Assembly: GCA_022843325.1 (NCBI GenBank)
Contig: JALHNV010000002.1
Span: 36,920-100,919 of the forward strand
DNA from: Pseudolabrys sp.
Lineage (GTDB): Bacteria > Pseudomonadota > Alphaproteobacteria > Rhizobiales > Xanthobacteraceae
Direction of reading: 5' to 3'
Length of the DNA stretch: 64,000 nucleotides
In this document: positions 20,056-58,426 of the stretch, piece by piece
How the letters are laid out: each line of letters opens with the position of its first letter
Position numbering within the stretch: position 1 is the stretch's first letter
Position numbers and translations under genes: made by a program
The notes under the pieces: generated by a model
The model's input: the letters and a program-made list of their open reading frames with translations, nothing else
The model's database searches: none
What the model was told of the DNA's origin: nothing

Positions 20056-21342
20056 CGACGCCGGCTTCTTCTCCTTTGGCGGGCGGTCGTTTTCGGTGAT
20101 CAGCCGGGCGCCGCGCTGGTAGGTGAGGTAGCTCCAGAACCAGGTGAGGGCGACGTTGAAGCGGTTGCGCGCCCCGATCAGAAAATAGATGTGCGCCAGG
20201 CTCCAGAACAGCCAGCCGATCCGGCCGGTCAGGCGCAGGCGGCCAAACTGCACCACGGCGGCGCGGCGGCTGATGGTGGCGAGGTCGCCGCGATGCCGGT
20301 AGCGGAACGGCGTATCGGCCGGACGGCCGGCCACGCGCGCCGCGATCACCTCACCGACGTAATGGCCCATCTGCTTGGCGGCCGGCGCGATGCCAGGCAC
20401 CGGCTTGCCGTCGCTTTGCGTGACCGAGGCGGTGTCGCCGATGACGAATACATTCGCATGCCCGGGCACCGACAGATCGGGCGCGACTTTGACGCGCCCT
20501 GCGCGGTCGGCCTCGGCGTCGAGCCAGGTTGCCGCCGGCGAGGCTTTCACCCCGGCGGCCCAGATGATGTTCCAGGCGTCGATGCGCCCGGCTTTGGTGT
20601 CGACGCCGTGATCGTCACAGCCGGTCACCGCGGTGTCCGTCATCACCTCGACGCCGGCCTCCTCCAGCGCCTTGCGCACATAGTCGGACACTTCGGGCGG
20701 AAAAGCGGGCAGCACGCGCGGCCCGGCCTCCACCAGGATGATGCGGGCCATGCGCGGGTCAATGCGGCGGAAGTCGGTCGCCAGCGTCTTGCGGGCGATG
20801 TCGGCGATGGCGCCAGCCATCTCGATGCCGGTAGCGCCGCCGCCGATAATGACGAAAGTCAGCCGCCGGCCCCGATCGCCTGTGTCGGCCAGCGTCTCGG
20901 CCCGCTCGAAGGCGACCAGAATGCTGCGGCGTATGCGGGTGGCGTCGTCGATGGTCTTGAGGCCCGACGCCACCGCGGCCCATTCGTCATGGCCGAAATA
21001 GGAATGCATCGCGCCGGTGGCGAGCACCAGGTAGTCGTAGGGGACAGCGCCGGACTCCGTGAGCACCTTTTGCCCCGCGGTATCGACGCCGCGCACCGGC
21101 TCCATAAGCACCGTGGCGTTATGCTGCTCGCGCAGGATGTGACGAATCGGCCAGGCGACGTCGGCCGGCGACAGCGCCGCCGTCGCCACCTGGTACAGCA
21201 AGGGCTGGAAGCAGTGATGGTTCTGCCGGTCGATCACGGTGATGTCGGCCGCGGCGTTGCGAAGCGCCACCGCCGCCTCAAGACCGCCGAAGCCGGCACC
21301 GACGATCACCACTTTCGGCCGGTGCGGCTGATCCGGGTTCAT
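20050..21342 (-). CDS. NAD(P)/FAD-dependent oxidoreductase (type II NADH dehydrogenase-like)
   Basis: KVVIVGAGFGGLEAAVALRNAAADITVIDRQNHHCFQPLLYQVATAALSPADVAWPIR. Confidence 0.93.
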   Translation of the reverse strand: MNPDQPHRPKVVIVGAGFGGLEAAVALRNAAADITVIDRQNHHCFQPLLYQVATAALSPADVAWPIRHILREQHNATVLMEPVRGVDTAGQKVLTESGAVPYDYLVLATGAMHSYFGHDEWAAVASGLKTIDDATRIRRSILVAFERAETLADTGDRGRRLTFVIIGGGATGIEMAGAIADIARKTLATDFRRIDPRMARIILVEAGPRVLPAFPPEVSDYVRKALEEAGVEVMTDTAVTGCDDHGVDTKAGRIDAWNIIWAAGVKASPAATWLDAEADRAGRVKVAPDLSVPGHANVFVIGDTASVTQSDGKPVPGIAPAAKQMGHYVGEVIAARVAGRPADTPFRYRHRGDLATISRRAAVVQFGRLRLTGRIGWLFWSLAHIYFLIGARNRFNVALTWFWSYLTYQRGARLITENDRPPKEKKPASS

Positions 21343-21452
21343 GCCTGATATCCCTGCGTTGCGGCCAGGTGGCAAGTCAGTTGCCAAGCCGAGGCCGAGC
21401 CATTAGCACTGCCGCTCATCGCAAAAGTCGATAGAACGGCGAGGCAACGTCC

Positions 21453-22562
21453 ATGGCAACCCACAATCTCCTGCTGCTCCCCGGTGACGGCATCGGCCCC
21501 GAAGTGATGGGCGAAGTGAAGCGTGTCGTCGACTTCTTCAACAAACGGGGTCCCGACAAGTTCACCACCGAGGACGCTTTGGTGGGCGGCAGCTGCTACG
21601 ACGCGCACGGCGTCTCCATCACGGATGCCACGATGGACAAGGCGAAATCGGCCGCTGCGGTGATCTTCGGTGCGGTCGGGGGACCGAAGTGGGACAAAGT
21701 GCCCTATGAGGCCCGCCCCGAGGCGGGCCTGCTGCGGCTGCGCAAGGATCTCGCGCTCTATGCCAACCTGCGCCCGGCGGTGACCTATCCGGCGCTGGCC
21801 GAGGCCTCCTCGCTGAAGCGCGAGCTGGTCGAAGGCCTCGACATCATGATTTTGCGCGAGCTGACCGGCGGCGTCTATTTCGGCGAGCCGAAGACCATCA
21901 CCGATCTCGGCAACGGCCAGAAGCGCGCCGTCGATACCCAGGTCTATGACACCTACGAGATCGAGCGGATCGGCCGCGTCGCCTTCGAGCTGGCGCGCAA
22001 GCGCAAGAACAAAGTCACCTCGATGGAAAAACGCAACGTCATGAAATCGGGCCTGCTGTGGAACGAAGTCATCACGGCGCTGCACGCGCGCGAGTTCAAG
22101 GACGTCGAGCTGGAGCATCAGCTCGCCGATTCCGGCGGCATGCAACTGGTGCGCAACCCGAAGCAGTTCGACGTCATCGTCACCGACAACCTGTTCGGCG
22201 ACATGCTGTCGGACATCGCCGCGATGCTGACCGGCTCGCTCGGCATGCTGGCCTCGGCCTCGCTCGGTGAGGTCGATCCCAAGACCAAGCGCCGCAAGGC
22301 ACTGTACGAGCCGGTGCACGGATCGGCGCCCGACATCGCCGGCAAGGGAATCGCCAACCCGATCGCCATGATCGCGTCGTTCGGCATGGCGCTGCGCTAT
22401 TCGTTCGACATGGGCAAGGAAGCCGACATGATCGACAAGGCCATCGCCGCCACGCTCGACAAGGGTCTGCGCACCGCCGACATTGCCGGGCCGGGTGCAA
22501 AGTCCGTCGGCACCGCCGAGATGGGCTCGGCCATCATTGCCGAACTGGAAGCGCTGGCCTGA
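21453..22562 (+). CDS. leuB: 3-isopropylmalate dehydrogenase
   Basis: [44 protein letters not shown]; full length 369 aa. Confidence 0.96.
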
Positions 22563-43736: not shown

Positions 43737-43943
43737 CGAACTTCTTTCCTTGACCTCTCCCCACAGCGGAGAGGCGAAGAGGGGCCTCCAAACGACTTAA
43801 CGCCCGAGGGCGCATTGCGCTGTCGGGCGGTGGCCTCCGGCCTCAGGGACCGGGCGGCGAACGGGTCTTCACGTCTCTTGCGAGAGTGGGCGCAACCTAG
43901 AAGCGGCCCGCCTCCGAGTCAAGACACAGAAAAACTATAAATA

Positions 43944-56923: not shown

Positions 56924-57685
56924 ATGAACTATCGCCACATCACCATCGCGCTTGCGCTGGCCTGCGCGCCTCTGGCGGCCTCGCCGCCGGCGGCCGCAAG
57001 CGAGCCGCGGGCGGTGATCGAGCTGTTCACCAGCCAGGGCTGCTCGTCATGTCCGGCGGCCGACAAGTTGCTGGCCGAACTGGCGTCCCATGATCCGTCA
57101 TTGCTGGTGATGACGCTGGCCATCGACTACTGGGATTATCTCGGCTGGAAGGACACGCTGGCCTTGCACGGCCACTCCAAGCGACAACGCGGCTATGCCG
57201 AGGCGCGCGGCGACCGCAAGGTCTACACGCCGCAGGTTGTGGTGAACGGGGTCAGCCATGTGCTCGGCAGCGACAAGGTGGCGATCGAGAACGCGGTGGC
57301 GCAGACCCGGCGCAACGCCTCGCCTCTGACCGTGCCGGTTCAGGTAAGCGTCGCCGACGGCATCGTGTCGGTCACGGTGGCGGCCGCCGCCGGCCAGCAT
57401 CGCAGCGGTGAAGTCTGGCTGTGTCCGACCACCAATAAAGTGCCGGTGACGATCGAGCGCGGCGAGAACCGCGGCAACACCGTCACCTACAGCAACGTGG
57501 TGCGCCGCTGGGTCAAGCTCGGCGACTGGGACGGCACCGCGCAAACTTTCAGCGCGACGGTCGCCAGTGTGGCCGGCGCCAAACTTCGTCTTGAGGATGT
57601 CGACCGGCTCACGGTCCTCGTGCAGAGCGGCAACTCTACCAAGCCCGGCCTGATGCTGGGCGCCGCCTCCGCCAGCTTGCGCTGA
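56924..57685 (+). CDS. DUF1223 domain-containing secreted thioredoxin-like protein
   Basis: AVIELFTSQGCSSCPAADKLLAELA...DYLGWKDTLALHGHSKRQRGYA. Confidence 0.92.
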   Translation: MNYRHITIALALACAPLAASPPAAASEPRAVIELFTSQGCSSCPAADKLLAELASHDPSLLVMTLAIDYWDYLGWKDTLALHGHSKRQRGYAEARGDRKVYTPQVVVNGVSHVLGSDKVAIENAVAQTRRNASPLTVPVQVSVADGIVSVTVAAAAGQHRSGEVWLCPTTNKVPVTIERGENRGNTVTYSNVVRRWVKLGDWDGTAQTFSATVASVAGAKLRLEDVDRLTVLVQSGNSTKPGLMLGAASASLR

Positions 57686-57710
57686 CGATTCCCCTTCTCT
57701 CGCCTGTGCT

Positions 57711-57741
57711 AAAAAAACGGGCCGGCACAAAGGCCGGCCCG
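57711..57741 (-). terminator. Minus-strand rho-independent terminator with no annotated minus-strand CDS upstream
   Basis: Minus strand CGGGCCGGCctttgtGCCGGCCCGTTTTTTT; the T-run exists only on the minus strand. Confidence 0.8.
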
Positions 57742-57870
57742 AAGACTTGGGGATTGAACCGTACGCGGTACTCAACTGGCCCGGTCGACTGACCCCCGGG
57801 GGGCTGGGGGGCTGAGGAATCCGGAGATCAACCGGACCGGGCCTTGAGGCAACGGTCCAGTTATCCCCCC
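57711..57870 (-). ncRNA. Candidate structured small RNA (rod-like, 6S-like overall shape; identity unknown)
   Basis: Nested pairings, plus coordinates: 57749-57754/57863-57868, 57756-57762/57852-57858, 57771-57775/57844-57848, 57778-57786/57835-57843; followed by the minus-strand terminator. Confidence 0.55.
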
Positions 57871-58045
57871 GCCGCGTGACCGGCAATTGACGAAAATAGG
57901 GCGTTATTGTGGGAAGTTCTGACGTGTTCGTGAGGGCCGAAAGCGGTGTTCCCGCACCGGATTCTGCCGGTGATTGCCGTCAAATGTCTCTTGCAGCACG
58001 CGTTTCCCGGCGCGATCATTACCGCCAACGTTAAGGAGGCGCCGC

Positions 58046-58426
58046 ATGACGTTCGGTTCCGGCGATGTCGATCCAAGCCAGTCCCCCTCTTTTGGCAACG
58101 TCGTCACGACGCGAGGCGCCACCCCAGCCGCTCAGGTTACTTTCACCCGCCGCGAGCTGACAGCGATTCTCAATCTCTACGGCCGCATGGTCGCCGCCGG
58201 CGAGTGGCGCGACTATTCGATCGACTTCTTCAAGGATCGCGCGGTGTTTTCGGTCTACCGGCGGACCTCGGAGGCGCCGCTCTACCGCATCGAAAAAAAC
58301 CCTAAGCTGGCGCAGCGCCAGGGCGCCTTCAGCGTCATCGCCGCCGCGGGCCTGATCGTGCGCCGCGGCCAGGAGCTCGACCGCGTGCTGCGCGCCATCG
58401 ACAAGTCCTCGCTGTCGCTGGTGTGA
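58046..58426 (+). CDS. DUF2794 domain-containing protein
   Basis: VTFTRRELTAILNLYGRMVAAGEWRDYSIDFFKDRAVFSVYRRTSEAPLYRIEKNPKLAQRQGAFSV. Confidence 0.9.
   Translation: MTFGSGDVDPSQSPSFGNVVTTRGATPAAQVTFTRRELTAILNLYGRMVAAGEWRDYSIDFFKDRAVFSVYRRTSEAPLYRIEKNPKLAQRQGAFSVIAAAGLIVRRGQELDRVLRAIDKSSLSLV

Follow-up and report, generated by a model that had tools for sequence, protein, structure and literature searches.

A minus-strand small RNA gene of the BjrC174 family upstream of DUF2794 in Pseudolabrys, and its probable orthology with PmaR

In the 64,000-nucleotide stretch of Pseudolabrys sp. DNA analysed here (the window), a strong stem-loop followed by seven T's lies on the minus strand between a DUF1223 gene (PF06764; 56924–57685, plus strand; Pfam 218.5 bits) and a DUF2794 gene (PF10984; 58046–58426, plus strand; 133.1 bits). 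Open reading frames and Pfam matches confirm that both flanking genes are on the plus strand, as had been noticed from the sequence alone, and synteny supports each assignment; DUF1223 is thus the convergent and DUF2794 the divergent neighbour of anything transcribed from the minus strand. The question raised by this arrangement is whether the structure marks a gene of its own and, if so, what its RNA is and how it acts.

A cmscan of the window gives a match to Rfam RF02355 (BjrC174), which covers the full model (positions 1–201) at 57934–57714 on the minus strand with 70 bits (gathering cut-off 45 bits; E 1.1e-10) and reaches further upstream, to 57934, than the region picked out beforehand. 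BjrC174 is a known Rfam family that the sequence-only reading had overlooked, and the window RNA is not a new family. In Bradyrhizobium japonicum BjrC174 is described as an abundant sRNA; its promoter drove a reporter, even though mapping gave no promoter motif of a known kind (PMC4842269). The earlier proposal of a structured sRNA that is transcribed independently and ends at a terminator of its own is supported by the RF02355 match, by the covariation described below and, in Bradyrhizobium, by the homologue being expressed and having an active promoter (PMC4842269). Judged from its sequence, what lies on the minus strand here is a genuine sRNA gene belonging to the BjrC174 family. It shares strand layout, stem, loop, terminator and neighbours with BjrC174, but has a longer 3′ spacer, six rather than five C in the first loop repeat when compared with the best Bradyrhizobium-like matches, and an otherwise diverged sequence (70 bits, whereas the best matches reach 196).

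Fold, terminator and loop

The terminator (57711–57741, minus strand) consists of a 9-bp GC stem, a 6-nt loop and T7, reading CGGGCCGGC-ctttgt-GCCGGCCCG followed by the T run, as first described, and is the sole terminator-like site in 57500–58200. The minimum free energy fold of 57870–57711 (minus strand) has −86.6 kcal/mol; 200 dinucleotide-shuffled sequences average −63.5 ± 4.4 (z = −5.3), and not one of them folds as well. Among 56 aligned relatives, 95% of cells are paired in the terminator, with both sides changed in seven of its nine pairs, and 93.7% are paired in the GGCCCGGUC:GACCGGGCC helix, which also carries compensatory changes. This helix forms the conserved rod, or spoon handle (57778–57843, minus strand; 5′ arm GGCCCGGUC at 57843–57835, 3′ arm GACCGGGCC at 57786–57778), that is supported by the minimum free energy fold, RNAalifold and pair counts and encloses a stem of variable sequence. 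RNAalifold on the same 56 sequences retains the terminator together with the inner part of the rod, and 18 of the 25 pairs show double changes; on four of five measures no shuffle in 500 did as well, and slid controls of the whole structure scored far lower. Compensatory changes are thus present in rod and terminator both by RNAalifold and by direct pair counts, and the window RNA combines them with a full-model family match.

The sequence-only reading had stacked four helices into a long rod. All four appear in the minimum free energy fold, but of these only GGCCCGGUC:GACCGGGCC is conserved, as is the terminator; GGGGAU:AUCCCC, GGACCGU:ACGGUUC and CUCAA:UUGAG are paired in merely 43–56% of cells among the 56 relatives. 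At most, then, the outer half of the rod as first drawn is particular to this species and its close kin. A GUAC-CGC-GUAC hairpin named alongside these helices is present in the sequence but absent from the fold and not conserved. Nor is the region strictly free of open reading frames, as had been stated, since a 262-codon TTG-start frame (57098–57886, minus strand) crosses the RNA; running antisense through DUF1223, it looks spurious.

The apical loop of the RNA has a C-rich core, CAGCCCCCCAGCCCCCC (57798–57814, minus strand), that is near-invariant. Among the 56 aligned relatives the loop, CAGCCCCC(C)AGCCCCCC, shows practically no variation, and its core varies little or not at all across 56 sequences of the family, 64 of the order and 37 from a wider range. 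In the last set the bases of C-C-C-C-A-G-C-C-C hold, or nearly so, across wide-ranging sequences with a mean column identity of 34%, and the CCCCAGCCC core is also kept in genomes of lower G+C content (for example at loci L102 and L240). One relative (L067, genome G012) has three CAGCCCCCC repeats in an expanded loop.

Relationship to PmaR

Counting the window and 70 relatives, DUF2794 adjoins the BjrC174-family RNA at 71 of 71 loci and is divergent in all but one, whilst DUF1223 lies on the other side of the RNA in 66, the RNA occupying the slot between the two genes; in the remaining five DUF1223 was not found within the fetched stretch. At L051 the sRNA and a conserved block upstream of it (see below) are inverted together with the order of DUF1223 and DUF2794 unchanged, which argues that block and sRNA form one transcription unit. 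The orientation of the sRNA relative to DUF2794 is reversed at L051, L144, L154 and L157, apparently through natural inversions. In Brucella, the DUF2794 gene BAB1_0087 appears in a table where MucR is treated as a global silencer of genes (PMC10746212), and MucR might act on the DUF1223–DUF2794 intergenic region.

An sRNA of similar appearance is PmaR of Agrobacterium (formerly C10), a functionally studied regulator that is spoon-shaped with a C-rich loop and is flanked by two hypothetical genes (PMC6234868). When 248 genomes from a single family of the order were searched with RF02497 (Atu_C10), three matches passed the cut-off, all in one genus that is Agrobacterium-like by score, and ten weaker ones were found. 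DUF1223, convergent, lies beside 13 of these 13 loci and DUF2794, divergent, beside 12, both neighbours being found at all three above-cut-off loci and at 12 overall; in Rhizobiaceae Atu_C10 thus occupies the slot that the RNA has in the window. The nucleotides that serve as landmarks in the published probing of PmaR (G18, G19, G47, G62 and G81, with CCCA at 58–61; PMC6234868) all fit the three above-cut-off sequences, in which G62 is the sole G within nt 48–66. RF02497 (Atu_C10) is, on these grounds, PmaR.

Several observations connect this RNA with BjrC174. In Sinorhizobium meliloti, acnA is followed by a thioredoxin-family gene that takes the place of DUF1223, then by an intergenic gap and by DUF2794, and the gap contains an opposite-strand rod carrying CCCUCAGCCCCAGCCCC; similar rods and loops lie upstream of DUF2794 in Shinella and in another Sinorhizobium. 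On one stretch in Shinella, RF02355 (35.5 bits) and RF02497 (28 bits) overlap, both below their cut-offs. We also used a core model, R1, whose source alignment held no sequence of the GTDB family (f24) that contains the Atu_C10 matches. In 197 kb searched, R1 finds the Sinorhizobium and Shinella stretches at E 1.2e-6 to 1.6e-6 and the Agrobacterium-like loci more modestly, at about 1.3e-3 to 1.7e-3, the worst value overall being 0.013. The two RNAs have in common the slot between DUF1223 and DUF2794, the spoon shape and the loop core CCCCAGCCCC; CCCAGCCC within the window loop corresponds to PmaR nt 58–65, so that CAGCCCCCCAGCCCCCC contains the CCCA-G nucleotides with which PmaR binds its targets, and CCCA58–61 is among the bases kept in the 37 wider sequences. 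PmaR/Atu_C10 differs in its shorter model (89 nt), in the partial loss of one C-tract repeat and in a diverged stem sequence. Even with E allowed to reach 10, no Atu_C10 match is listed for the window, let alone one at the curated cut-off of 60 bits, which is why the window RNA is filed as BjrC174, and the two Rfam entries share no clan. Nonetheless, we take BjrC174 and PmaR to be, very probably, orthologues that Rfam has split into two entries. The literature searched does not make this link, its coverage of BjrC174 dating from 2016, before PmaR was named, and gives no function for BjrC174. The link gives BjrC174 a testable function and corrects the published view that confines PmaR to Agrobacterium and a single Rhizobium strain. 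At the Shinella locus (L315), a SAM_alpha riboswitch (RF00521; 6065–6142, plus strand; 79.9 bits) lies downstream of DUF2794 at a distance of about 2.8 kb.

Upstream block and extent of the family

Conservation across the 71 loci sets in abruptly at TCACG (57933), the sequence further upstream not being conserved. The conserved stretch opens with TCACG-N4-CGTTA and contains an A/T box and GCCCNATTTCGGTCAA; in the window the block occupies 57887–57933 on the minus strand, with TCACG-N4-CGTCA at 57933–57920, CACAAT at 57911–57906 and GCCCTATTTTCGTCAA at 57902–57887. Although it lies inside the Rfam model, the block is probably promoter or regulatory DNA. At Agrobacterium-like loci GCCCNATTTCGGTCAA sits 47–32 nt 5′ of the Atu_C10 model start, ending 31 nt before the first model base, and since the published numbering of PmaR begins at that base, the GCCCNATTTCGGTCAA block there lies upstream of the transcript. 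It is found at a similar distance at window-type loci. A −10-like GATAAC box (57860–57865, minus strand; TGCGATAA consensus in relatives) and the same offset of about 31 nt from the upstream block as that of PmaR nt 1 would place the 5′ end of the window RNA at about 57855–57853, by inference only; a start nearer 57900 is still conceivable. With a start at 57855–57853, the GGGGAU helix mentioned above would fall in the promoter. TCACG-N4-CGTTA shows no excess that would point to a regulon, with 107 genome sites at up to one mismatch versus 196 for the reversed control.

Within the GTDB family, BjrC174 occurs in 177 of 200 genomes and 43 of 47 genera, and is single-copy in nearly every positive genome. 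Across the order, the RF02355 model places 23 of 298 genomes above the cut-off and 78 at E up to 0.001, its weaker matches outside the family having the same loop and, at 16 of 20 fetched loci, a nearby DUF2794. R1 extends this to 177 of the 298 genomes and 84 of 123 genera, and 15 of 20 further fetched R1 matches, mostly weak, adjoin a recognisable DUF2794; the Rfam model thus misses most members in the order. Beyond the order R1 matches thin out to 10 of 386 genomes in a search of the class, two of them from the window's own family; where the loop could be located in these matches, DUF2794 is divergent in six of six. The extent of the family, together with its identity, is the new part of this result.

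An exact scan for the 17-mer CAGCCCCCCAGCCCCCC was also made in 85,462 species genomes. Among the matches listed (80 stretches), a divergent DUF2794 lies within 1 kb in 41 and a DUF2794 in the other orientation in three, these loci including three from Hyphomonadaceae (L141, L158, L184) and one from Ponticaulis (L143). The other 36 of the 80 listed are without DUF2794 and are mostly from other phyla or rod-less; such stretches look like chance matches. A few of the DUF2794-less stretches are alphaproteobacterial, some of these ending at the edge of the fetched DNA. Upstream of DUF2794, on the opposite strand, several other class-level loci (for example L257, L259, L261, L264, L268 and L273) have a motif resembling AGCCCCC(C)A(A)GCCC, which is absent from about two thirds of the 30 class-level DUF2794 loci examined. 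Two loci have tandem sRNA-like cores upstream of DUF2794, L252 (G447:C17, R1 matches at 21200–21302 and 21399–21503) and L268 (1029–1126 and 1222–1318), and one genome (G457) has three R1 matches.

Predicted mode of action and alternative readings

The best explanation as a whole, which we regard as probable, is that of a BjrC174-family sRNA gene, orthologous to that of PmaR, with a product whose loop pairs with G-rich sites in mRNAs. The minus-strand gene would yield, from its own promoter and with its own terminator, a regulatory RNA of roughly 145–165 nt, in which a long, rigid stem rich in GC carries at its tip a C-rich loop (CCUCAGCCCCCCAGCCCCCC) that stays single-stranded. As in PmaR, this loop would base-pair with G-rich stretches of several mRNAs, expression being raised or lowered. 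Binding of the C-rich loop to G-rich mRNA sites had been offered beforehand as an alternative to a 6S-like role, and is the better idea, being the published mechanism of the syntenic counterpart (PMC6234868). The PmaR loop binds mRNAs such as those of murB and ampC directly; PmaR raises the expression of most of its targets and lowers that of one (atu3504), and changing CCCA58–61 to UUUU abolishes target regulation (PMC6234868). Caulobacter GsrN, in which a C-tract loop acts on G-rich mRNA leaders, backed by compensatory mutations (PMC5869019), is an analogue and provides an independent precedent. GsrN differs in lying near general-stress-response genes in most relatives, in its sigma-T promoter and in having its loop near the 5′ end; in place of the ecfG/nepR/phyR position, the window RNA adjoins DUF2794. 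From the mechanism of the PmaR loop, the conserved CCCA bases and the GsrN precedent, we infer that the window RNA, which is presumably made, acts in trans through its C-rich loop, by base pairing with G-rich mRNA sites.

Sites for such pairing do not stand out by number. The loop-complementary GGGGGCTGAGGA, with up to one mismatch, shows no excess in the genome (9 versus 14 for the control). GGGGGCTG is seemingly over-represented in four lower-G+C genomes of one genus, relative to a reversed control that differs in CpG content; the sampled sites there are mostly within coding sequence and not at starts, and no target was called.

The extreme invariance of the loop could also reflect a protein or a single RNA as partner. 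A broader proposal, which we consider improbable, would make BjrC174 and PmaR a single sRNA of ancient origin in the Alphaproteobacteria, extending beyond the order, with the CCCCAGCCC loop frozen by a class-wide conserved partner (a protein or core RNA) and mRNA regulation added on top. Comparably doubtful is a BjrC174-family sRNA acting as a decoy or sponge, its loop taken up mainly by a protein or by one constant RNA and not by a varying set of mRNAs. The persistence of CCCCAGCCC where mean column identity is 34% and in the lower-G+C L102 and L240 would suit such an RNA, as would the mostly coding location of the sampled GGGGGCTG sites. Against this, PmaR binds mRNAs directly and its loop mutation abolishes the regulation of several of them (PMC6234868), and multi-target seeds can be invariant too. 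Pairing with G-rich mRNA sites predicts that nine or so loop bases matter across many genera, and the role of this order-wide, single-locus sRNA becomes directly testable.

If the structure were no separate gene but belonged to the DUF2794–DUF1223 region as an element, untranslated or antisense, that acts in cis on its neighbours, DUF2794 adjacency over wide distances would be accounted for. This reading is very unlikely in view of the terminator on the opposite strand, the joint inversion of sRNA and upstream block at L051, the reversed loops at L144, L154 and L157, the persistence of the sRNA at some loci where DUF1223 is not found nearby, and the promoter activity in Bradyrhizobium (PMC4842269). 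The original hypothesis of a 6S or 6S-like RNA-polymerase decoy, suggested by the length of the rod and its open apical part, can practically be dismissed, as only this outline is shared, RF00013 has no match in the region up to E = 10, conservation lies in the C-rich loop and not in a central bubble of the 6S type, and the same genome has its own 6S gene above the cut-off on another contig (G000:C18; 79 bits). Weak Rfam matches to isrO, suhB, SorY, RyhB and PrrF fall far under their cut-offs and mostly cover the terminator end only. The second Rfam match of the window, at 43793–43844 on the minus strand, is to the 'ffh' sRNA (RF01793; 52.1 bits).
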